Shown here: one piece after another, positions 3,301 through 28,718 of the stretch | Position numbering within the stretch: the stretch's first letter is position 1 | How the letters are laid out: each line of letters opens with the position of its first letter | The notes under the pieces: generated by a model | Told to the model about the DNA's origin: nothing | Seen by the model: only the letters and a program-made list of their open reading frames with translations | The model's database searches: none | Source: a virus | IMG/VR virus record: IMGVR_UViG_3300049916_000047 | Coordinates: 1-32,284 of that record | Length of the DNA: 32,284 bases | Reading direction: 5' to 3' (one strand) | Position numbers and translations under genes: made by a program

Positions 3301-4087
3301 CTTCACCAGACACTGCTGAAGCCATGCCTCTGAGTATTGTTGGTGCGTGTTTAAGGCTTTTAAATACTAAAGCCCCAGTACCTCCTCCAGCTAACAACGC
3401 TGGAAAACCATCTGCTACGATTGCATCAATTATGCTATCTCCAGTTTCTACTCGAACACTATCTTTCTGAAACGCACCTAATCTATCATTAGTATCTATA
3501 CCTACAAGCTCACCAAAAAAATCAACTCCAGAGGCCACTAACTCCAAGGCATCATAGCCACTTTCTCTAGTTCCTAAGTAAGCCACACTGGTGAGGGGTA
3601 CTTTTGCTCTTATATCTTCAAAGTTAAAATCATTAAAAGGCCAGAGACTTTTAGCAACATCCCATGTGCGAGGCTCTGGTCTAGGAACAAAAGTTTTTTT
3701 ACCATCTTTATCTGTATATACTAAACTTCCAAAATTAAATGAGAATGGTGAATCTGGATCATCTACGGTAGCTGCATATTCTGTAAATTTATTATTCGCT
3801 TCTACATAACTCATATCGTCATATGAAGATGTAGAGAAACCTTCTTGTTCGATATTTTCTTCTGAAGTTTCATCTTTAGATGATGTATCTACCCCAGACA
3901 AATTCATAGACTTGCCGTTAACTACAGTATCAGGGTAGGGGATTACAGGCTCTTCTTTTTCCTCTGGAAGGAAGGAGTCTGCTACAGATTGAATACCTGT
4001 ATCATCATTATCTTCGTCTTTTTCATCTTCTAAGTCAGGTAAAAAAGAGTCAGCAATAGCTTGTATATCTAGTTCTTCATTTTCCAT
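365..4087 (-). CDS. Very large virion/ejection protein candidate (1240 aa)
   Basis: The longest gene of the window and the last of the late run. I recognise no enzyme motif. Size, the final position after tail and lysis genes, and an acidic N-terminus followed by long Ala-rich helical and coiled-coil stretches fit an internal virion protein ejected with the DNA, like T7 gp16 in role only. Residues 8-17 (IQAIADSFLP) and 32-41 (IQSVADSFLP) are a near-exact repeat in the acidic leader. Two Gly/Ala-rich hydrophobic stretches near residues 220-243 and 305-331 could enter a membrane. The start is ATG with GGAG 11 bases upstream. No lytic transglycosylase motif was seen, unlike T7 gp16. A structural role is inferred from context. 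Confidence 0.6.
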   Translation of the reverse strand: MENEELDIQAIADSFLPDLEDEKDEDNDDTGIQSVADSFLPEEKEEPVIPYPDTVVNGKSMNLSGVDTSSKDETSEENIEQEGFSTSSYDDMSYVEANNKFTEYAATVDDPDSPFSFNFGSLVYTDKDGKKTFVPRPEPRTWDVAKSLWPFNDFNFEDIRAKVPLTSVAYLGTRESGYDALELVASGVDFFGELVGIDTNDRLGAFQKDSVRVETGDSIIDAIVADGFPALLAGGGTGALVFKSLKHAPTILRGMASAVSGEVAATATTGTDEGTLWLDFGPEDMGLAEDEKGKLIAHRMNTFMEGMILGGAFTGAALTVKAGGMAAYDFLGKGIVDMFRGRPAVEREIYQKVSISLGGLTSKSTPQEVAAVQAEIAEIVKNNKEVIVRSLADLEKERPQTFDTVTALLRGNSENLNPSNLRGNRAGVVNESGTTPIQMTDGTSTTLNDQVNAPVNAIQDDLAAQRQALGGGEGTVVTQVNPQVLPADQAVMQDAADVVVNQSRRVVDEAQGGLEAAQAKFDADVDAVLANRADDIEMMAALEELQKKYPDELADVQLEGVGTIKSDVRNAYEAIKNEKDRLYREVEGGAVDSEGLVETLESLDPSYFDPARLGLPPKSMFGNFMNKFKSTKAQVDNLLKEADSISAKLANPKSKNKEALQNRLDEIDSIVGGDPDAAVKKLMADFIEGEGLTFGDLYTDIRPAISRAASDLFSASTPESKAAGRVMREFISYIDNDALDFAAQSDAGLKEAADAAKSFYQNNYADFFGGDSVLARYANLYDSTIGRTPGTNLTAKATGKEFGVREYNEKLNTLVNGEVLGSGNEDIFQNVADLLGKNLNGEQLGNPDLLFDYMMFDVIQNFHSKVRTGGMKAVDVEAMLNQLNKHATVVSKVFPEKTASIRKFIDELEAVKGSSTDLETKLATASENATVAKSKLYDSILSKFWDNKGTPKASEIAAGSEIRPTSNPYENFATIFRDPQAVNRLDDLMAEIDALPKGNYAKSEGEIVMDGLKLSFNKFIDDKIFTAARNLTGGKELSVAQADKILEDVRTPQVMALARKIYKDSPEWVEALENTLDFARDAAINKRATPNPSQSATNFNANAQTATNRLIYTFIGPLSRTGTKLKALGSGVINKYDTNQLAAEVTAQLYADPDYFLELARRFNSNPKDPLLEQLMVRYLFGGIIKTDLDDDSENRSDAIKDVGSGIASKVTPDFIESGFTSVSDAVPVITDALGIPTTE

Positions 4088-6278: not shown

Positions 6279-6860
6279 TTATACAGGCTCCTCTTCTAAC
6301 TCTTCTTCTGGATCTTCTTCTACTTGCCCAAGCATCTCAGCTTGTTCTTCTGCAGGTGCAGCCCCAGTATTCTGAGGCATAGACATTAGACCCATCATCT
6401 GTTCTTGAGTGATTTCGTTAGGACCAGCTTCTTCTCTTAAAGCCTTAATTTCTTCTGACTCTTCTTCCGGTTGTTCTACTATTCCAAGAGCGGCTTTTAG
6501 TAGCGTAGGGGTGAGAACCATACGATCAGCTTTCTCAACACCCATCTCATGTTTAATTCCGGAATTATTAGCTTTTATCTCAATATATCGTGCTAGAGGA
6601 CCAGCCATTAACATAGCCAGATCTATAGAGAATTTACCCTTAGATATGCCTTGAAGGAGTAGGGTGCTTACTACCGTTGCTACATGAGCATCAATCTGTA
6701 GCATTGCAAATACTAATTCTATTTGCTCTGGCTCATCTATCTTATCTAGCATGTAAGAAACAGCTTCATCATAATCAACAAGATCCGGTGGTCTGTGCCA
6801 AGGGTAATTCTTAGTATCTGTTAGATAGTTTTCGCCTGGAATTGGTCCTTCAAACTTCAT
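6279..6860 (-). CDS. Conserved marine-phage protein of unknown function (193 aa)
   Basis: The N-terminus (MKFEGPIPGENYLTDTKNYP then WHRPP) and the central segment LAMLMAGPLARYIE look like a family often found in the late region of marine tailed phages; no function is known to me. Residues about 45-95 are helical and partly hydrophobic (VVSTLLLQGI) but contain charges, so membrane insertion is uncertain. The C-terminal third is Glu-rich and ends in EEELEEEPV, an acidic tail. It overlaps the preceding small gene by 11 bases and is followed after 1 base by the 724-residue gene, so the three are probably translationally coupled. A minor virion or assembly role is plausible from position only. Confidence 0.6.
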   Translation of the reverse strand: MKFEGPIPGENYLTDTKNYPWHRPPDLVDYDEAVSYMLDKIDEPEQIELVFAMLQIDAHVATVVSTLLLQGISKGKFSIDLAMLMAGPLARYIEIKANNSGIKHEMGVEKADRMVLTPTLLKAALGIVEQPEEESEEIKALREEAGPNEITQEQMMGLMSMPQNTGAAPAEEQAEMLGQVEEDPEEELEEEPV

Positions 6861-7032
6861 CTATATCATCCTCTTTCTTGACTTCAGGCTCATTCTTTAA
6901 TTCTTCTTCAAGCTCATTGAAGTACTCAGGGGTGTAAATAAGTTCGCCTTCTTTAAGTTCCATCAAGCTTTCGGGAACTTTACCGTCTAAGAAGTTAGCG
7001 ATTGACTTTTTAATTGCACTAGTGAAGTCCAT
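6850..7032 (-). CDS. Small acidic protein of unknown function (60 aa)
   Basis: Not recognised. The N-terminal 20 residues are mildly basic and helical; the C-terminal half is strongly acidic with a run of Glu/Asp (ELEEELKNEPEVKKEDDIDEV). It overlaps the end of the S74-bearing gene by 14 bases and the next gene by 11 bases. AAGG sits nine bases before the ATG, inside the upstream gene. Double overlap on the same strand supports a real coupled gene in the late operon. No Cys and no membrane segment. Confidence 0.6.
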   Translation of the reverse strand: MDFTSAIKKSIANFLDGKVPESLMELKEGELIYTPEYFNELEEELKNEPEVKKEDDIDEV

Positions 7033-8716
7033 TGTGTACCGCCTTATAGTCTACCATTAGATAGCCGCTATCATGTTTAGAGATTGCTTCTGGGTGAGTT
7101 TTCATAAGGTCTTGGGCTATAAAACCAGTAGTATGGTTTTGGTCTGCACCCAACCGAAGACCTTCATCATTCCATTGCCATGAATATATGTTGATACCAT
7201 TTATAGTATCTATCTTACGAACATTCTTTTTAAGCCTAACATCACTGAGGCCTTTAATAAAATCTACTATGAATTTTGATCCTGTGCCTGTACCTGCAAA
7301 CGCGCCACCAATACCAAGAGCTAATTCCCACCAGCTAGAGCCGCCTTGTTGTTGTGCTTGGGCCGATAGTTGAGATCCTAACAAGGTAACTGTGCGATTA
7401 GCATCCCCTTCTTCTTTGCGAAATATAAAGTCTAGTAAGCTATCTGTACGATCCCACAACTGGTTCATACCTTCTGTAGCTAAGTCTAACGAGTTTTTTA
7501 CATCTGAACTTATAGCATCGACGGTTGCTTGGAATTGTTTTACAGTAACTTCCTGTCTCCATTTCGCATTAGCTGTATCAATATTATACTGCATGGTTGA
7601 GTAGAACCGCGCTCTAGCGTCTTCTAACTCTGCATTAAACTCTCTAGTATCGTTAATCTCGCCAGCGTTAAACCTCTTCATAGCATTAATCTCAGAAGAG
7701 TTGTGTTTCTCCACTGCTACATTAAGCTCATCGTAAAACTTATTGAAATCATTTGTTTGTTCTGCAGTAAATAGGCGCTGGGCATTAATGATCTTACTGT
7801 CCTCAAACAAAGCTTGAGTCTTAGCCTGTTTATTTATTACTTCTGCCTGTTGCTCATTAGTTAAGTTCTTTAAGTCCATCTCTAAGAAAGACTTAGCATT
7901 CTGTACTGCAGCCGCCTGTCGTGCGCCTAAGTTAGCTACCTCAAAGCGAGATAGTATGTTTGCTTTATTAATAATAGCTTGCTGGCGGTTGTCTAAGTTC
8001 TTTGTTGTAAGTGTCTGAAAAAAGGAAGCTTCTTTCTCTGCTATCCCTAGAGTAGCTTCCATAATAGCTGTAGCCATTGCAGAGGTCTGGGCTGATCCAC
8101 TAATACCATCAAAAGCCATAGTCTGTGCTACTGATCTAGCCATCTTCTGCGCCCATTTTGGTATCACAGCTTGACCCTGATCGTTTACAAATTGCTCAGA
8201 GATGATTTTCATCTGCCCAGCTATTGTAGCTTTTTCGTCTACATAGTTACCTTCGCCCAGCGCCTTGGCTAAATTCTTACCGCTTACTGTAGAAGTATCG
8301 ATGATAGAGCTAAATTTTTGTGTGGCATAATCATTAGCTGCTACACCAGTGTAGTTAATTGTACCATCTGCATTTACGCCAGTAGCTGCACCTTGCATAT
8401 CAGTGACTATAGTTGAAGCATCTACTAGATTGTCATCGTCTATTGTTCCGGTAGCTGCGTTAACATCAAAAGAAGCATCCATCTTATCAAGGTTTGTACT
8501 AGCCTCATAAGTCACTGGGGTTGCTGCTGTAACGGATTTAACTGTAGATGCTTCTCCTGCAGTGGCAGTTTCTATATTTAAAGCATCTGCTTCACCAAGA
8601 GAGTACTTGGCGTCTGTGCCATCAAGAATAGTACCTTCAGCATTTGCATTTAAGGTTGGAACTAAGTCTTCTATATTTAAGTTTCGGCTCTTAGCCCATG
8701 CATTTGGATCATCCAC
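7019..8716 (-). CDS. Virion protein with C-terminal S74 self-cleaving chaperone domain (565 aa)
   Basis: The last 75 residues form a peptidase S74 / intramolecular chaperone domain: SDVRLKKN with Ser491 and Lys496 at the spacing of the known Ser-Lys dyad, followed by GFIAQDL and the VDYKAV end. In this family the domain helps a trimer fold and is then cut off autocatalytically at the Ser, leaving about 490 residues here. The remainder is not beta-helical: residues about 230-430 are a long Ala/Asn/Glu-rich helical region of coiled-coil type. The start is GTG; the frame is open only about 14 more codons upstream with no ATG. The upstream gene ends 16 bases before. The body resembles a structural protein family of marine phages, known to me only by pattern. 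Likely a fibre or tail appendage component. Confidence 0.75.
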   Translation of the reverse strand: MDDPNAWAKSRNLNIEDLVPTLNANAEGTILDGTDAKYSLGEADALNIETATAGEASTVKSVTAATPVTYEASTNLDKMDASFDVNAATGTIDDDNLVDASTIVTDMQGAATGVNADGTINYTGVAANDYATQKFSSIIDTSTVSGKNLAKALGEGNYVDEKATIAGQMKIISEQFVNDQGQAVIPKWAQKMARSVAQTMAFDGISGSAQTSAMATAIMEATLGIAEKEASFFQTLTTKNLDNRQQAIINKANILSRFEVANLGARQAAAVQNAKSFLEMDLKNLTNEQQAEVINKQAKTQALFEDSKIINAQRLFTAEQTNDFNKFYDELNVAVEKHNSSEINAMKRFNAGEINDTREFNAELEDARARFYSTMQYNIDTANAKWRQEVTVKQFQATVDAISSDVKNSLDLATEGMNQLWDRTDSLLDFIFRKEEGDANRTVTLLGSQLSAQAQQQGGSSWWELALGIGGAFAGTGTGSKFIVDFIKGLSDVRLKKNVRKIDTINGINIYSWQWNDEGLRLGADQNHTTGFIAQDLMKTHPEAISKHDSGYLMVDYKAVHNGLH

Positions 8717-9709: not shown

Positions 9710-9884
9710 GTTCTGAAATAGCCTTGTAAAAATTAGTTTTCTTCTTTGAGGCTTGTAGGTCATCTTTAAGGATCTTATTCTTCTCTTTATTAGCTCCAAC
9801 AACCTTTCCCATGACGTAAATAACAGGAATAGCCAGAGCCAATGCACCAATGATGTAGGTCTTAATTTTACCAAAGATAAACAC
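9645..9884 (-). CDS. Rz-like inner-membrane spanin (79 aa)
   Basis: One N-terminal membrane helix (about residues 8-28, YIIGALALAIPVIYVMG) is followed by a Lys-rich, probably coiled-coil periplasmic part, the shape of an i-spanin. It starts with GTG whose G is the last base of the endolysin stop (TAGTG), with AGAAGG nine bases upstream in the end of the endolysin gene, so translation is coupled to the endolysin. The o-spanin begins inside it in another frame. At 79 residues it is short for the family. Assignment rests on topology and on the adjacent lipoprotein gene rather than on sequence identity. Confidence 0.75.
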   Translation of the reverse strand: MFIFGKIKTYIIGALALAIPVIYVMGKVVGANKEKNKILKDDLQASKKKTNFYKAISEHEEDNITDRPSLIKRLRGNGL

Positions 9885-10615
9885 TAGTGGATGCCTTCTT
9901 TATTATCTTTCCATCTTGCATAAGCAGCCAAAGCTATGCCGCCAATTGCACAGACTAAAAATATAGTCTTCAAGCTATCAGCGTAGGGTAGTAAGCTTTG
10001 CATTTGACCTGCTACTTCATTCAAACCTGTAGCTGCACCAGCAATCCCTGCACCAGCCATAGTCTTAGACTTCATTAAACTTTTAGGAGCTTCGGAAGTT
10101 ACCTTCTGAGGCATATCCGGACCACCTTCATCCGATGGCATCAGAGCATCTCTAGTAAAGATTGCAGCTTCTGCAGCCCTACGTCGAGTTAAACCTTTTA
10201 GAGGAGTAAGCTTTCCATCAATCCGACATTTATTCCAGCGCATAATCTGTTCAGGAACTTCGTCGTACAGACCTTTGTTCAATTTTTTCAGCAAAGTTGA
10301 GCTGCGAAACGCACCTTCGCCTAAATTGAATATGAACGACACTAGACTGTCATATTGTCCTTGTGAAAGAGGTACTTGTACATACTTCTTAATAGCTTTT
10401 GCATGGTCATTGAGGTCTTCAATTAATCGTAATTCGCAGTATTCTTTAGTCCACTTAGTACCAGAGCGCACTCCGCGAGTCGCGCCCCATCCACAAGTAT
10501 ACCGTCCGGCGCTACATCGATATGCGCTAACCATACCGTCTGGTTGTACTCTGTGAAGTCCTTCAAACTTCTTTACTAAATTAATACCATCTTCTGAAAT
10601 TTTGACAGGGTGCAT
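9884..10615 (-). CDS. Endolysin, GH24 lysozyme with C-terminal membrane segment (243 aa)
   Basis: Residues 5-150 are a GH24 (T4-type) lysozyme that cuts the MurNAc-GlcNAc bond of peptidoglycan: KKFEG with catalytic Glu18, then AYRCSAGRYTCGWGAT with Cys34 and Thr40 giving the Glu-Cys-Thr form of the triad. QYDSLVSFIFNLG and LTRRRAAEAAIF are typical later motifs. Residues 160-210 are a linker, and residues about 217-233 (TIFLVCAIGGIALAAYA) form a membrane segment followed by a basic end. GH24 endolysins normally lack this, or have a signal-anchor at the N-terminus, so this one may be membrane-tethered or carry a holin-like tail. The ATG has AAGGAG seven bases upstream. The spanin pair follows directly. 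Confidence 0.9.
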   Translation of the reverse strand: MHPVKISEDGINLVKKFEGLHRVQPDGMVSAYRCSAGRYTCGWGATRGVRSGTKWTKEYCELRLIEDLNDHAKAIKKYVQVPLSQGQYDSLVSFIFNLGEGAFRSSTLLKKLNKGLYDEVPEQIMRWNKCRIDGKLTPLKGLTRRRAAEAAIFTRDALMPSDEGGPDMPQKVTSEAPKSLMKSKTMAGAGIAGAATGLNEVAGQMQSLLPYADSLKTIFLVCAIGGIALAAYARWKDNKEGIH

Positions 10616-22296: not shown

Positions 22297-23079
22297 TTAT
22301 CGGGCTGCACCGGAAATATCATAGTTGAATTTACCGGAAGAGATAGCCGCTTGGATAGCTTCTTCGTTAGCTTCATACTCTCTGTCAGACATTTTCTGTA
22401 CCATGCTTTCAGAGAAAGTAGCTTTTGGATTAGCCGCTGGTGCAGAAGAGTTTGTCTTTCCAACACTTTGCGCTGCAGATTTACTTCCTTGTCTATATCC
22501 TGTTTGAGCTTTGTACAGGTCTATTGTACTTGCAGCCCATGAAGCATCTGTGTTGTTCTTATAGACGCTATCTTGAATAGTAGGATGCTGTAAGGCAACC
22601 CAATCGTGGAAGCGTTTATCTTGACGTATAGATGCAAAATCTGGGTGCTTTTCTAAAAGCTGTTGTTCTGCAGATTTCTTATGAAGACTTTTCTCAAATT
22701 GTTCTACTTTTGCGAGTCTTTGTTCACCAAGCTCAAGAGCTTCATTAGCCCTTTTTTGGGCAATGCTATCAACAATTTGAGCAACGTCAGGATACTTTTT
22801 AGACCATGCTGCAATTTCTTCATCGGTTTTTGGAAACTTAATTTGTTTCCTAGTCGCTGCATCAAGCTGTTTTTGAACGTCGGCAACTTGTTGTGCAGCC
22901 TGATCACGCACTGTTTGGATATGTCTTTGAATATCTTGATAACGCTTTTTATAGGATTCTTCTTCAGCATTTAATTGCTCCACTGGTTCTTGTGGTTGCT
23001 GTTGTGCCGCTAACTCTTCACTGTAAGTCATGTTATCTTCAGGTTCAGGAGCGCGAGAGTATTTTTGTTTCTTTTCCAT
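22297..23079 (-). CDS. Capsid scaffolding protein (260 aa)
   Basis: A charged, almost wholly helical protein: Gln/Glu-rich N-terminus, a long coiled coil (about residues 40-145), the segment LLEKHPDFASIRQDKRFHDW, and a Ser/Ala/Lys-rich flexible C-terminus. This composition and its place between portal-side genes and the capsid gene are those of a scaffold that directs procapsid assembly and leaves before packaging. The ribosome site is weak (AGAAAG). No protease motif seen. Confidence 0.8.
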   Translation of the reverse strand: MEKKQKYSRAPEPEDNMTYSEELAAQQQPQEPVEQLNAEEESYKKRYQDIQRHIQTVRDQAAQQVADVQKQLDAATRKQIKFPKTDEEIAAWSKKYPDVAQIVDSIAQKRANEALELGEQRLAKVEQFEKSLHKKSAEQQLLEKHPDFASIRQDKRFHDWVALQHPTIQDSVYKNNTDASWAASTIDLYKAQTGYRQGSKSAAQSVGKTNSSAPAANPKATFSESMVQKMSDREYEANEEAIQAAISSGKFNYDISGAAR

Positions 23080-23116: not shown

Positions 23117-24487
23117 TCAAATAGCAAATACAAATTTCTGTTTTTTCATAATTGCTGGTAGCGGTTTTGATGTAGGAGATAATTCTTTATCTTCTTCATC
23201 GTCTAATTGATCGTCTACTTGTACTGTAGCGACCTCTACATCCATCTCTTCTGATGGAATCTCTTCGGGTGTTTCTCCCTCCTCTTCGGCTTCTTCTTGT
23301 TCGGTATCGTCTGAGGCTTGTACTTCGGTTTCCTCAGTGCTTTCGCTACCGGATTTATCCGAATGATACCCTGTGTTTTCGCAATGCTCACAACCTCTCC
23401 CCTGACACATTGGGCATTCAACAACACCCTCAACATCTACACTCTGAATAAGGCCATCCATCTTCATAGACATTAGCCCCATTTCGGCTTCAGCTTGCAT
23501 TCCCATGATATGCTTTAAGCCATGATATTTTACTACATGCGCTGGGAGTACATACTCTCCAGTACTAAGATTTGCTTCGATATCATCTCTGACATTCTCT
23601 GCAGAAGAACCTAGAGGAATAGGGTTGCCTGACACATCATCATACCCCATAAAGCCACAGTCTCCGGTACAATCGCCTTCGCAACCGCAAGCCATTCCCC
23701 CATGATACATTTTTACAGGTATATCTTCATCATCCACTAATTCATTATTTTGTAATGCTAGTTGGACTTCACGCTCTGCATTGCTAAGAAAGCCATCTTC
23801 ATTAGTATCTCCTTCAGAGACATCTGCTTGTTCTTTGTTTTCAGCCATTTTTCTGTCTTCTTCTGAAAGACCTTTTTTGCTGTCTGCTAAATTCAAATCA
23901 CTTTTTGCCATTTCTATATTTACCTTAATGTTGTGGGAGCCTCTAATATCTGTAACTGGCTCTTGTCCTTCGTAACCGTCATAGAAAGTGTGTTTGCCTA
24001 TAACCAAGGGGTTGGAGCCGCCAAAGGAAGTTCCTCTAGCTTCTGTTCTTTCTCTGTTTTGAAAAAAAGTACTACCTTGAGAACCGTCTTTACCTAGCTG
24101 GATATAATCAACGAGTTCTTGTATTCCTTCTCGTAACTGGTCTTCGGGTACTGGAATGGCGTCTATTGTTTTGTAGGTGTCTATAGGTTCAAATTCACCT
24201 GCCACTAATACAGAATCTATATCGTTACCAAATCTATCAGAGGCTAATCTGTTGAAGATAACTCCTCTAACAGCATCACGCCCTGCAACGCCCTCAGTGT
24301 TAGCTTCTGCCCAGACAACTCTTTCGATTTTTTCTAGGTCATCTAAGCTGATCTGAAAGGTAGGTTCTTCAGGTCTAGGTTGAGGTTTAACAACTTGAAA
24401 GTTTGGTCTTGGTTGAGGTTTTATAAAGCCTTCATCCATAAAAGGAGTTCCTAAATCAGTTAATAAAATAAATAGTAAATAATTCAT
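23117..24487 (-). CDS. SleB-like wall hydrolase fused to EF-hand, Cys-cluster and DnaJ-type zinc motifs (456 aa)
   Basis: Residues about 48-172 look like a SleB-type (hydrolase_2) peptidoglycan hydrolase: VVWAEANTEGVAGRDAV with Glu61 as likely catalytic residue, VIFNRL, FFQNRE and IGKHTFYDGY. Residues 227-238 (DTNEDGFLSNAE) are a complete EF-hand calcium loop. Residues 267-277 have four closely spaced Cys. Residues 294-340 (SSAENVRDDIEANLSTGEYV, VVKYHGLKH) are a block I know from structural proteins of marine phages. Residues 358-373 (CPMCQGRGCEHCENTG) are a DnaJ-type zinc motif, followed by an acidic tail and a basic end. An alternative ATG at 24439 has AGGA nine bases upstream and would remove a hydrophobic N-terminus. 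Probably a virion protein that opens the wall on entry. Confidence 0.7.
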   Translation of the reverse strand: MNYLLFILLTDLGTPFMDEGFIKPQPRPNFQVVKPQPRPEEPTFQISLDDLEKIERVVWAEANTEGVAGRDAVRGVIFNRLASDRFGNDIDSVLVAGEFEPIDTYKTIDAIPVPEDQLREGIQELVDYIQLGKDGSQGSTFFQNRERTEARGTSFGGSNPLVIGKHTFYDGYEGQEPVTDIRGSHNIKVNIEMAKSDLNLADSKKGLSEEDRKMAENKEQADVSEGDTNEDGFLSNAEREVQLALQNNELVDDEDIPVKMYHGGMACGCEGDCTGDCGFMGYDDVSGNPIPLGSSAENVRDDIEANLSTGEYVLPAHVVKYHGLKHIMGMQAEAEMGLMSMKMDGLIQSVDVEGVVECPMCQGRGCEHCENTGYHSDKSGSESTEETEVQASDDTEQEEAEEEGETPEEIPSEEMDVEVATVQVDDQLDDEEDKELSPTSKPLPAIMKKQKFVFAI

Positions 24488-24490
24488 TCA

Positions 24491-24706
24491 TCATTCAGCC
24501 CCTTTGAGAGTTTCTTCGCGCAGTGTGCTAAAGCGTCTTAGCTCTGCTATTGCGCCCTGAAAGCGAACAATGGTGTCCATGTCTCGCTCTGTAGATAGCT
24601 GTTGAAGTAAAAGGTTAATTCTGATTTCTGCGTAATCTTGTAGACATTTGAACTGATCTTTATCGTTCACCAAAATCAAAAGATTTCTGTAAAATTCTTT
24701 ATCCAT
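24491..24706 (-). CDS. Small helical protein between portal and hydrolase chimera (71 aa)
   Basis: Not recognised. Almost entirely helical and charged, with a basic/acidic coiled-coil look (LLLQQLSTERDMDTIVRFQG). It starts 12 bases after the portal stop, and its last codons contain the AAGGGG that may serve the chimera gene. The ribosome site is weak. Small helical proteins in this position accompany portal genes in many podoviruses, but no function can be assigned. Confidence 0.55.
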   Translation of the reverse strand: MDKEFYRNLLILVNDKDQFKCLQDYAEIRINLLLQQLSTERDMDTIVRFQGAIAELRRFSTLREETLKGAE

Positions 24707-24717
24707 TAATAGATCTT

Positions 24718-26841
24718 TTATTGAATAGGTGGTGCAGCTTGTTGTTGTGGTTGGTTACCGCCATTGTCTCCACCACCGCCCCCTGTAAATCCTTGGGCAT
24801 CTGGTTCCGGTGCTTGGGGTACTGGTGCGCCTTCAGGTACTCCCTGCGCTGGTGATCCTTGTGCTTGGACTGAAGTAGGTGGCGCTGGTGGATCTGGCAT
24901 CATGGCTTTTATCTCAGCCATCATTTGTTGTTGGATAGCGGCTTCTCTAGGATCGTTGAGGATCTTGTCTTCGTCTAAGTCCATCGATGCTGCTAGTTCT
25001 CTGAGTATGTAGTCATATTTCACGAAAGGAGCCATCTGCTCATTGCCTGTCATTTGCATGAACTGTAGTAGGCGTTGGCTACGAACTTCATTACGCATAA
25101 GGCTCTCTGTACCTCTAGCCTTAACGTCCAAGTCTCCTACTAATTCTTTGTCGAAGTTAAACTGCATATTGAAAGCAAACAGGCTCTTACCCAATGGGCT
25201 GAGTAGGTAGTCATCGATGTTCCGGACCACCGCTTTAATATTTTGCGCTGCGGCTCCCATGAGCATCGACATACCTGAAGCAGTTCTACCAACGCCGCCA
25301 ACGGCTCCCGATCCATGTGAGTAGGATGGAATACCAGTAGCCTCATCAGCTAGTTGTCTGCTCTTATCAAACATCATTAATAGCTCTTGGCTGACGTTCT
25401 TAAACGAGTGGGAATGTATGCTCTGGCCTGGTGCGCCTTGCTGTCTCCTAAAAATTTTGCCTGGATATATAGACATATCTTGGCCTGGAACTAAATTAGT
25501 TTCATCTATTTCTATCAATAGGTTACCAGACAAAGCTCCATTATCGACTGCCATTCGCATGAAGCCATTCATCAAGAGTTGTGTATCTGTCATATTCTCA
25601 GCTACACCAATGCCCCAGAAGGAATAAGGGTTTAGCTCATAAGGAACTGATAGGTAAGGAATGCGGTTAGGAGTGAAGGGATTTAGTACTAATCTAAGGA
25701 TTTGACCGTTACAAATCCAAATATTGACCTGAATTTCGTCTTTTTGGCGTAAATCCTTCGGAATATCTATATCGGCTTCTTCAGCTAAATCGGTGTCTAA
25801 AATGCCCCAATATTCTAAAACTTCATACCTTTCCATCTCTGGAGAGATCCCATCGTCCTCTAGAGCCTCTTCCCAGTAGCTTCTGGTATAATCTGGGCCA
25901 TATTCTAGAGCTAATTCTATGGATTCTGAACGAAAATGCGGTCTTTTCTTTAGAGATCTAAGCTGAGTGCGGTTCATTCTATGGCGTTGTATAGCAAACT
26001 CTGCCTCAGACATGTTTCTGGCGTCAGGATCTGGATAAAAATCCCAAATAGAGACATATTCTACTTTAGGTATAGTTTCCATTACCGGATCGTAGTCACC
26101 ATCCTCTGTCCAGCGCGGATATTCTTTAGTTTGGGCAAATGGACCCTTCATACAGCCGCTACCAAAGAGGCAAGTCTCAAAAGCCATAGATCTGAGGTGT
26201 TTTGGGGCTTCTGACTCGTCTAATTGATCGTGCATGAGCTTTTCCATCTTCTGGGCGGCTCTTTTCGCGGGTTCGTAGGTTATAGACCCTGGCATTTTAC
26301 CTGCACCAAGCTCTAAATCGTCCTGTATTTGAGTTAAATCCTCTTTATAAATGCCTAGATCCTTGGCAATGTCCGGACGAACAATATTATTGGAGATTTT
26401 GTAGTCTACACCAGCTTCTTCTTTGACTTTTTCTTCAGTAAGCTTGTTTGGGTCCATCGAAACAGCGTCAGCTACGTTATTAGGAAACTGTCTAGCCTCT
26501 ATTCCAATAGGAAACTTAGACCCAGCCATAAGTACGTCTACTACTTGGGCGTATGCAGCGAGAACTTTTGTTTTAGTAACCTTAATAAATGCTTTGGACT
26601 TTTCAGTTTCAGTAAATTGTACTTCCGACGAATATAAGCCACGATAATTACGGTAAGCATCTAACCATCGCTCCTCATCTACTCGTCTTGCTTCTTCTGA
26701 ACGTCTAAATTGGTCTTTAATAAAGCTTACTGCACCAGAGTATTCTGTATTTTCGGCTTCTACATCCCCAGTTTCGTCCAAAGGAATGGCAAGATCTGAG
26801 TCAGTTACGTCTTCCGGTAGAGGTTTATCCATCAAGGCCAT
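24718..26841 (-). CDS. Portal protein (707 aa)
   Basis: Directly follows the large terminase and has the portal pattern: N-terminal helices (RVDEERWLDAYRNYRG), a wing region with YVSIWDFYPDPDARN, the IPYLSVPYELNPYSFWG block before helices that line the channel, and a long helical C-terminal part ending in a Pro/Gln/Gly-rich tail (about the last 55 residues). The dodecamer forms the DNA entry channel and docks the terminase. ATG at 26841 sits two bases after the terminase stop TAA; a TTG 12 codons further up lies inside the terminase gene and is less likely. Size is in the range of P22-like portals. Confidence 0.88.
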   Translation of the reverse strand: MALMDKPLPEDVTDSDLAIPLDETGDVEAENTEYSGAVSFIKDQFRRSEEARRVDEERWLDAYRNYRGLYSSEVQFTETEKSKAFIKVTKTKVLAAYAQVVDVLMAGSKFPIGIEARQFPNNVADAVSMDPNKLTEEKVKEEAGVDYKISNNIVRPDIAKDLGIYKEDLTQIQDDLELGAGKMPGSITYEPAKRAAQKMEKLMHDQLDESEAPKHLRSMAFETCLFGSGCMKGPFAQTKEYPRWTEDGDYDPVMETIPKVEYVSIWDFYPDPDARNMSEAEFAIQRHRMNRTQLRSLKKRPHFRSESIELALEYGPDYTRSYWEEALEDDGISPEMERYEVLEYWGILDTDLAEEADIDIPKDLRQKDEIQVNIWICNGQILRLVLNPFTPNRIPYLSVPYELNPYSFWGIGVAENMTDTQLLMNGFMRMAVDNGALSGNLLIEIDETNLVPGQDMSIYPGKIFRRQQGAPGQSIHSHSFKNVSQELLMMFDKSRQLADEATGIPSYSHGSGAVGGVGRTASGMSMLMGAAAQNIKAVVRNIDDYLLSPLGKSLFAFNMQFNFDKELVGDLDVKARGTESLMRNEVRSQRLLQFMQMTGNEQMAPFVKYDYILRELAASMDLDEDKILNDPREAAIQQQMMAEIKAMMPDPPAPPTSVQAQGSPAQGVPEGAPVPQAPEPDAQGFTGGGGGDNGGNQPQQQAAPPIQ

Positions 26842-26843
26842 AT

Positions 26844-28718
26844 TTAATATCCAAATATTGCGTCGGCTGGACGCCAACTTTGTTGTGGTATGCCATTACC
26901 AAAGTCAAAGGGGCTAAATGCCTTCGGTCTGGACATGGCTGCATACCTGATAGAGTCGTAGGTATGTCTTTGTTGAGAGGTTCTTGGGTCAATGTCATCA
27001 CCGCCCTTGGGGTCTGTGGGTATAATAGGGAAATCCGCTATTACCTGTCGGCATGTATTAAAGAATTGTATGCCAGCTAGACCTGTTTCCTCATCTACTT
27101 TAAACAATTCATGCAGTCGGTTCTTTCCTGCTATCCTTGCTCCGTTTGATCTGTCACTAGGACGCCATCTGCATCCCTGAGAAATCATTTCTTCGGCAAT
27201 CGATGGACCTAGCTGTCCTCTCTGATGCCAACAACTGGAGTCTAGAACTCCATACTGTATTTTTTCACCACCTTCGGCCTCTAGTACGGCTCTGGCTAAG
27301 TCACGGCCTGTATGTTTAGTTACATACAATTCTCTGTAGCAAACTAAGGTGTCGAAGTTAGGGTCAATAGCAAACCAATGAACTGAGCTAAAACTAGAAT
27401 AGCCATAATCACATGACCTGAATCTGGTCCAATCAGTCGGAATATCGTATGGTTCAATGACATGATCTTTTTGCCTAAACTCTGGGAAAGCTGCTCCATC
27501 CGTAATTCCCCAATCGCCTTCAAGAAGTTGCCGCCTTTGCATCTCAGGTAATGAAAGTAGGTTAGCTTCATATTGACCGCCTTCCATGAGGTAGGGATTG
27601 TCCGATAATCTGGCTGGAATAAAGCGCCTGTAGAATAGTGGTTCTCCTGCTTTCTCATGTCCTTCGGGATATACTAGGTCATCCCCTGTATCGATATCCT
27701 GCGCTACAAACTTCTTATTGGGTGGGGCAGGGTCTATGAAGGTTCGTTTTACCCATCCCATTCCTATACCACCTGGATTGGTGGTAGCTCTCATGTAAAC
27801 TGGCAGAGTAGGGTCTGTTGTACGAAGCCGGGATCTTAAATAATTCCAGCTAAAGGGAGTGGCATACTGAGTAAGTTCGTCTACCGCTATATAACTAAAT
27901 GACTGACCTTGGTATCTGAGTACATCCTGATCTCTTTCAAGGTATGTAAGCCAGAGTTTTGCTCCTGAAGGAAACGTCCACTGTGACTTCTTCTCAGCCC
28001 ACTTAGCTCCTTTAAATGCTCTGGGATATAGTTCCTGAGATTTCCAAATAAGCTCTCTAAGTTCGTCATTAGTTCTACGAAGAATAAGCCCATTAAAATT
28101 AGCGTTTGAGAAGTAACGCATTGGGTCTGCTAGTAGGCCGTAGCTCTTACCGCCACCAGCGGCTCCACCATATAAAACTTCTCTTTCGGATGCTGCTAAG
28201 AACTCTGTCTGTGGACCCTCGTTAGGGGCGAATATGACTTCCTGTTCCTGCTTCTGTTTATCTATCACATCAAAATCAAGGCTGCAAGAGATCGTAGGCT
28301 CTTCAGGCGATAATTTATTAAGATCTCTCTTAGCCATAGTCAGTCTACGTTTAGCATCTGTCTGCTTACGTTTTGCTGCAGCTAATTTCTTTTCTTCTAG
28401 GGTTTTAGGCTTGTTCTTGCGTCTTGTCTTAGCCATCTCTTTTAGACGCTTAGAGGGGTTCTCTGTACCTTTGACTCTGAACCTATTCCAAATAAGATTC
28501 ATACCCTGATGGGAGAGCTTATCTCCGGTCTTACTTACTAGCCAAGCAGTGACCTTCCTAGAGCTATTTCCTTCCTCTAGGTAGTCCATAGCCTGTTCTA
28601 CTAGGTCTACCTTATCCTGATCAGGAACAAGCACCAGAGGATCGTCCTCAGAGGCTATGTAAGCATAAGGCATCTTGGCAGTCTTGTTAGGTCTTGTGCG
28701 GTTAGGCCACTTGCTCAA
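26844..28718 (-). CDS. Terminase large subunit (up to 624 aa)
   Basis: Packaging motor ATPase and nuclease. Walker A is GGAAGGGKS (184-192), Walker B is YIAVDE (276-281), then the coupling segment TTNPGG; the RNase H-like nuclease has acidic residues Asp437 (SCDYGYS), Asp493 (GVLDSS) and Asp588 (HTYDSIRY). Before the ATPase is an extra 160 residues: an HTH-like part (about 35-80, VTAWLVSKTGDKLSHQGMNL) and a Lys/Arg-rich helix (90-135). The reading begins with TTG overlapping the small-subunit stop by four bases; an ATG 15 codons later (28673) is the alternative start. It cuts concatemers and drives DNA through the portal. Confidence 0.92.
   Translation of the reverse strand: MSKWPNRTRPNKTAKMPYAYIASEDDPLVLVPDQDKVDLVEQAMDYLEEGNSSRKVTAWLVSKTGDKLSHQGMNLIWNRFRVKGTENPSKRLKEMAKTRRKNKPKTLEEKKLAAAKRKQTDAKRRLTMAKRDLNKLSPEEPTISCSLDFDVIDKQKQEQEVIFAPNEGPQTEFLAASEREVLYGGAAGGGKSYGLLADPMRYFSNANFNGLILRRTNDELRELIWKSQELYPRAFKGAKWAEKKSQWTFPSGAKLWLTYLERDQDVLRYQGQSFSYIAVDELTQYATPFSWNYLRSRLRTTDPTLPVYMRATTNPGGIGMGWVKRTFIDPAPPNKKFVAQDIDTGDDLVYPEGHEKAGEPLFYRRFIPARLSDNPYLMEGGQYEANLLSLPEMQRRQLLEGDWGITDGAAFPEFRQKDHVIEPYDIPTDWTRFRSCDYGYSSFSSVHWFAIDPNFDTLVCYRELYVTKHTGRDLARAVLEAEGGEKIQYGVLDSSCWHQRGQLGPSIAEEMISQGCRWRPSDRSNGARIAGKNRLHELFKVDEETGLAGIQFFNTCRQVIADFPIIPTDPKGGDDIDPRTSQQRHTYDSIRYAAMSRPKAFSPFDFGNGIPQQSWRPADAIFGY

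Follow-up and report, generated by a model that had tools for sequence, protein, structure and literature searches.

A SleB-type domain joined to a conserved C-terminal module in a candidate cargo slot of an HMO-2011-type marine podovirus

Results

Organization of the locus

The window is the whole stretch of DNA analysed here, 32,284 nucleotides long (IMG/VR virus record IMGVR_UViG_3300049916_000047, positions 1 to 32,284). By its sequence, it is a fragment of an HMO-2011-type marine podovirus, a type of phage that is reported to dominate in the ocean and to be widespread there (PMC9038755). Its late genes run in the order portal, 71-residue ORF, target ORF, 260-residue scaffold-like ORF and major head protein (PHROG 267), and also include a terminase, a SU10-like adaptor and, further on, a GH24 lysozyme. 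The features of interest are the following.

24718 to 26877, minus strand: SU10-like portal protein (PF23899, E 4e-28)
24491 to 24706, minus strand: 71-residue ORF between the portal gene and the slot
23117 to 24487, minus strand: target ORF of 456 residues, SleB domain and constant C-terminal module (ORF list, Pfam)
23918 to 24355, minus strand: predicted SleB/Hydrolase_2 lytic transglycosylase domain, residues 45 to 190 (PF07486, profile against the PDB, AlphaFold2 and Foldseek)
24305 to 24307, minus strand: Glu61
23990 to 23992, minus strand: His166
23774 to 23809, minus strand: EF-hand loop DTNEDGFLSNAE, residues 227 to 238, with predicted helices on both sides
23654 to 23704, minus strand: HGGM-CGC cysteine cluster, residues 262 to 278, variable and found in part of the relatives
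23447 to 23641, minus strand: conserved block beginning DDVSGNPIPLGSSAENVRDDIEANLSTGEYVLPAHVVKYHGLKHI, residues 283 to 347, constant in the slot protein of the group
23381 to 23416, minus strand: zinc-type motif CPMCQGRGCEHC, residues 358 to 369, an all-or-nothing module
23120 to 23362, minus strand: acidic C-terminal tail, residues 376 to 456, predicted to be disordered (low pLDDT)
22297 to 23079, minus strand: scaffold-like protein of 260 residues (PHROG 13678, E 7e-46, function unknown; position)
9884 to 10615, minus strand: GH24 lysozyme, likely the endolysin (PF00959, E 2.8e-36; net charge +10)

The 456-residue protein described in an earlier note on this DNA is thus a real minus-strand ORF, and the gene order agrees with its placement between portal and scaffold genes, the label "scaffold" for the 260-residue ORF being given from position and size only. 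In nearly all relatives, the scaffold-like gene follows the slot immediately on its 3' side. In many of them, a cargo ORF of 530 to 1016 residues is inserted just after the 71-residue ORF. A search of the window for RNA families, tRNAs, promoters and terminators returned nothing above chance.

Two further proteins of the window were noted. The GH24 lysozyme has a hydrophobic stretch near its C-terminus, recognised by eye, and is possibly membrane-anchored. A 565-residue protein (7019 to 8716, minus strand) carries a C-terminal Peptidase_S74 intramolecular chaperone domain (PF13884, E 5e-11), which suggests a self-cleaving tail fibre or spike.

Relatives of the slot protein

The closest annotated relatives of the target are found in Roseobacter phages CRP-2, CRP-738, CRP-3, CRP-235 and CRP-212, and a more distant one in Puniceispirillum phage HMO-2011. 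In these genomes the matching protein lies between the portal and scaffold-like genes and is annotated as a hypothetical protein. HMO-2011-type phages, including CRP-1 and others besides those just named, share the same gene slot and the same block as the target, and differ in the passenger. This is SleB in CRP-2, DUF7178 in CRP-212, and SleB together with a methyltransferase-like domain (below cutoff) and DUF7178 in CRP-3, all in one 1292-residue protein. CRP-738 has DUF7178 in the gene adjoining the slot, and no passenger was recognised in the slot of HMO-2011 or CRP-235.

IMG/VR was scanned twice. The constant module as query gave 372 relatives, of which 80 were kept, and the SleB domain gave 107, of which 80 were again kept; some contigs came up in both scans, and together these yielded loci L008 to L158. 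After the constant-module scan, SleB was present in 22 of 87 loci and the remainder had a slot protein without it. Leaving aside ORFs truncated at a contig end, every SleB ORF that the phage SleB profile recognised was fused to the block, and nearly all of these fusions adjoin portal or scaffold-like genes. The fusion seen in the window, which the earlier note proposed to look for in other marine phages, therefore recurs, for example in CRP-2 and CRP-3.

Translation start

The target protein would comprise 440 residues if Met17 (24439) is used as the start, and this is the likelier start than the first listed codon. A TTAGGA sequence lies 9 nt upstream of the Met17 codon and is kept in relatives, and the residues after Met17 match the starts of the relatives' proteins, so that the first 16 codons of the listed ORF (24440 to 24487, minus strand), which encode a hydrophobic stretch, are probably not translated. 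In L023, L025 and the clade of the window, the internal Met has a ribosome-binding site of the AGGA or GGGA type in front of it. Hydrophobic leaders also occur in L023 and in L059 and L076, the latter two with no clear ribosome-binding site before the internal Met, and the upstream ATG of the window itself has a possible AAAGGGG site. We also considered residues 1 to 16 as a signal peptide or leader and think this unlikely, given the ribosome-binding site at the internal Met and relatives that start exactly there.

The SleB-type domain

Hydrolase_2 (PF07486) matches residues 65 to 169 of the target with 34.5 bits (E 3.3e-8), above the curated cutoff of 27 bits, and the slot proteins of CRP-2 and CRP-3 with 45 to 59 bits. 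A profile built from nine phage SleB domains and run against all PDB sequences matched only 4f55 and 4fet (E 4e-7), which are the SleB proteins of B. cereus and B. anthracis, respectively. The AlphaFold (AF2) model has a pLDDT of about 77 to 93 over residues 45 to 180, and its best Foldseek matches are again 4fet and 4f55 (TMt 0.69).

Residues Glu61, Asn79, Arg80, His166 and His185 are invariant in all 39 non-redundant SleB domains. Glu61 and His166 align with 4f55, Glu61 standing opposite the Glu of the SleB YGES motif. The catalytic Glu of SleB is reported to be essential (PMC12331253), and Glu61 is its putative counterpart here. The dN/dS of the domain is well below 1 in pairs where it was computable; the domain is under purifying selection. 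Judged from the alignments and the model, the SleB domain is genuine, with a SleB-type fold and the look of an intact enzyme, predicted to be a lytic transglycosylase. The hydrolase and the Glu/His pair named in the earlier note are both borne out.

The target shares the fold, the aligned Glu and the IGKHxF motif with the catalytic domain of the spore cortex-lytic enzyme SleB (4f55, 4fet), at about 21% identity. Unlike SleB, it apparently lacks a signal peptide and has no peptidoglycan-binding domain that we could recognise; it carries a phage-specific C-terminal module instead.

The constant C-terminal module

The EF-hand loop of the target fits the 12-residue pattern, with ligands at positions 1, 3, 5, 9 and 12 and Gly at position 6, and its flanking helices are modelled at a pLDDT of about 61 to 76. 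A strict or loose EF loop was found in 55 of 75 non-redundant relatives, a less biased figure than our alignment A7, which overstates EF conservation since its members were preselected with the loose EF pattern. In composition-preserving shuffles of the target protein, a strict EF loop arises with p = 0.0002 and CxxC..CxxC with p = 5e-5. The Pfam EF-hand profile does not match the window protein, which has a single loop and no paired EF-hands, and the EF-hand_5 profile matches 8 of 45 relatives (best E 0.008).

The cysteine cluster includes CGCEGDCTGDCG at residues 267 to 278 and recurs in part of the relatives. The block that follows is near-invariant over about 60 residues. When the constant modules are aligned, 26 relatives show all four Cys of the zinc-type motif and 28 lack the motif altogether, as expected for an optional zinc knuckle. 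Thus, the complete EF loop, the cysteine cluster and the structural block of the earlier note are all real and recurrent, the block being constant in the slot protein of related marine phages, and so are the CxxCxGxG and CxxC of its "DnaJ-type zinc motif". Membership of the DnaJ domain, on the other hand, was ruled out: the target has one CxxCxGxG and one CxxC versus four CxxCxGxG repeats and two zinc centres, and the Pfam DnaJ profile (PF00684) matches one of 45 relatives and not the window protein.

The model of the constant module is of low confidence (mean pLDDT 58), and a Foldseek search with it gave nothing below E 6; its six weak matches are calcium-binding EF-hand, dockerin or engineered calcium-binding domains. 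Outside the group, hypothetical proteins of Rhizobium phages RHph_TM3_14A, TM27A, TM27B and TM29 weakly match the middle of the block (E 1e-3), a possible sign of its wider distribution.

The metal motifs and the SleB domain segregate separately among relatives. A strict EF loop is kept by 29 of the 32 non-redundant relatives that have no SleB, and no EF loop of any kind is found in 17 of the 43 SleB-bearing ones. The zinc motif shows no statistical association with SleB (Fisher p = 0.63), and the EF loop is, if anything, anti-associated with it (p = 0.004), being commoner where SleB is absent. We accordingly assign the EF-hand, Cys and zinc motifs to the constant module in preference to the wall enzyme.

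Exchange of N-terminal modules

N-terminal modules have been gained, lost and exchanged cleanly between near-identical phages. Loci L069 and L078 are 90 to 92% identical on both flanks, and L078 lacks 198 codons, corresponding to SleB and its linker, the gap beginning right behind the start codon. L073 corresponds to L069 with an in-frame insert of 1068 bp that has a Phage_L5_gp82 match. Four architectures are found between flanks of about 85 to 97% identity: SleB alone (L147), a leader domain and SleB (L155), a leader, L5_gp82 and SleB (L135), and another N-terminal module and SleB (L138). Likewise, L012 has an extra ORF of 598 residues (weak LPD23 match) between the 71-residue ORF and the target, which is absent from L009 with flanks at 96%. 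The large ORFs inserted after the 71-residue ORF in many relatives carry DUF7178, Phage_L5_gp82 or LPD23, the last being "large polyvalent protein associated domain 23". Several enzymatic or effector domains can share one chain, as in L003 (SleB, a weak methyltransferase-like domain and DUF7178) and in L135 and L073 (SleB and Phage_L5_gp82); the window protein has one only.

The leader domain is recurrent, occupying residues 1 to 110 of the block ORFs of L058, L155 and L002 with the pattern MDxITxHxYxNIxxGK...TVxTxxVxIDGxxxLIPTxWDG. In the slot protein it is found either ahead of SleB or by itself, and no Pfam match to it was noticed. A ParB-type-like passenger (DGRHRAMAL) was seen by eye at residues of about 150 to 210 of the ORF at 6559 to 8571 of L138, where Pfam is silent at E 0.01.

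A short motif, [FYM]xxGG[LIMVF], was counted 107 times across 53 non-redundant block ORFs, an 18-fold excess over shuffled sequences; the portal, terminase and scaffold-like proteins have none. Its copies lie immediately next to SleB on either side, and ahead of the EF-hand and of the block, for example at residues 110, 505, 680 and 743 of the ORF at 3864 to 6581 of L135. Part of this count may be ascribed to shared ancestry of the constant module, an explanation that would not extend to the copies at the ends of inserted modules. The motif might serve in docking, mark a site of cleavage or be typical of linkers.

Discussion

We favour, at slightly better than even chances, the reading that the target is the cargo-slot gene of an HMO-2011-type podovirus and that its SleB passenger is an accessory lytic transglycosylase packaged in the virion and acting at entry. 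The constant C-terminal module (EF-hand, Cys/GG segment, block, optional zinc knuckle and acidic tail) would be made together with the portal and scaffold and would dock the slot protein into the assembling head. The fused N-terminal modules would be interchangeable passengers, here a SleB-type lytic transglycosylase that would be carried in the virion and degrade peptidoglycan locally during DNA entry, by analogy with T7 gp16 and with polyvalent proteins that carry PF07486. It is probably this docking module, and not the enzyme, that the metal sites would stabilise or switch. Beyond the observed fold, conservation, fusion, exchange and gene order, we infer packaging, ejection and the time of action.

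This reading is adopted because the slot fits the concept of polyvalent proteins and has a precedent in T7 gp16. The SleB fold with its conserved residues, the fusion of SleB to a near-invariant module beside the scaffold-like gene, and the clean exchange of modules also speak for it. Polyvalent proteins combine several domains, are encoded by phages and conjugative elements and are likely packaged in the head and injected, and PF07486 has been named among their peptidoglycan-attacking domains, with a proposed help in entry (Iyer et al. 2017, PMC5512222). They are likewise modular, lie in the late portal/terminase region and combine unrelated enzymatic domains; their LPD23 and methyltransferase modules also occur in this slot, and PF07486 is reported in a small number of them. 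Unlike them, the slot keeps a dedicated, near-invariant C-terminal module and exchanges its passengers at sharp junctions between close relatives, and the window protein has a single enzymatic module. The slot may thus be taken as a polyvalent-protein slot, a class already described and with PF07486 already known in it; what is new is that a constant, docking-like module is dedicated to it, that cassettes are exchanged precisely and that a GG motif is enriched where modules meet.

Among podoviruses, T7 gp16 is the precedent for an internal wall-cutting protein (PMC5380687). Together with SP6 gp36, phiKMV gp36 and P22 gp4, it resembles the role proposed here in being head- or neck-associated and cutting peptidoglycan at entry (PMC5380687), whereas these proteins belong to other enzyme families and sizes. 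A virion location of the target is plausible from its gene order and polyvalent-protein relatives; our literature search found no virion proteomics of HMO-2011-type phages. The SleB passenger is dispensable: CRP-738, CRP-235, CRP-212 and HMO-2011 lack SleB throughout their whole genomes.

An unlikely alternative is that the SleB fusion is a lysis enzyme, an endolysin or an auxiliary one, that acts at the end of infection. PHROG profiles name the target an endolysin, and the fused SleB is the sole wall enzyme recognised in CRP-2 (MK613344), where some genes were scanned and GH24 is absent by a search of the whole record. G009, the record of L150, likewise has a fused SleB and no GH24. SleB-type "cell wall hydrolase" genes also lie outside the slot in CRP-1, CRP-345 and CRP-603, which have no GH24, and CRP-9, CRP-13, CRP-207 and G002 have neither SleB nor GH24 by these profiles. 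In part of the HMO-2011-type group, SleB enzymes are probably used as endolysins, so that the fused SleB may have a lysis role in CRP-2-like phages. Against this, 7 of the 9 genomes or large contigs with a fused SleB also encode GH24; in the window it is a distinct gene of the same contig, in keeping with the earlier note, which had separated the hydrolase from the GH24 endolysin. Moreover, the gene lies between portal and scaffold-like genes, SleB is fused to a module that is also found without it, and the protein has no leader if Met17 is the start. Its charge argues in the same direction: Gram-negative Hydrolase_2 lysins are reported to be positively charged (PMC8223927), whereas the whole target protein has a net charge of about -59 and SleB domains have a median of -11. 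The latter argument is weakened because CRP-1 gp11 (-1) and CRP-603 gp48 (-21) are not positive either. The probable lack of a leader and the strong acidity, unlike Gram-negative Hydrolase_2 endolysins, add to the case for a packaged entry enzyme.

We likewise hold it improbable that the target is an assembly factor, a partner of portal and scaffold or a minor scaffold, that is not retained in the virion, with SleB having an unrelated role or none. Such a factor would agree with a nearly invariant block that adjoins the scaffold-like gene in nearly all loci, and with an acidic C-terminus predicted to be disordered. The SleB catalytic residues, however, are invariant and under purifying selection, and diverse enzyme passengers fit delivery better than assembly. 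There is little to commend the idea that the passengers are anti-competitor or anti-defence effectors, with SleB remodelling the cell wall during infection so as to exclude superinfecting phages: fast module exchange between near-identical phages and the polyvalent-type neighbours (methyltransferase, DUF7178, LPD23) would suit it, whereas peptidoglycan cutting most simply serves entry. Finally, we reject as highly improbable the view of the earlier note that the folding or activity of SleB is gated by calcium and zinc sites on its own chain, a proposal that draws on every motif lying in one chain and on the good conservation of the EF loop and zinc Cys where present, because these motifs are equally or more frequent without SleB, many SleB fusions lack them, and the 356-residue insert of L073 parts SleB from the EF-hand with neither altered.

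That reading is hereby corrected: it is the constant module, rather than the wall enzyme, that the metal sites accompany. In the favoured reading of a packaged entry enzyme, we tentatively extend the role of the constant module (EF-hand, block and junctional [FYM]xxGG[LIMVF]), which is possibly a general cargo-loading tag by which fused enzymes would enter the head near the portal and be ejected with the DNA. The natural, near-isogenic pair L069 and L078, one module apart, shows what can be gained or lost. If the slot is a site of packaged cargo, the constant module would give a defined and testable loading signal for proteins delivered together with DNA. If the cargo-tag reading is true, a dominant group of ocean phages carries a plug-in delivery slot, the contents of which turn over faster than the other late genes.
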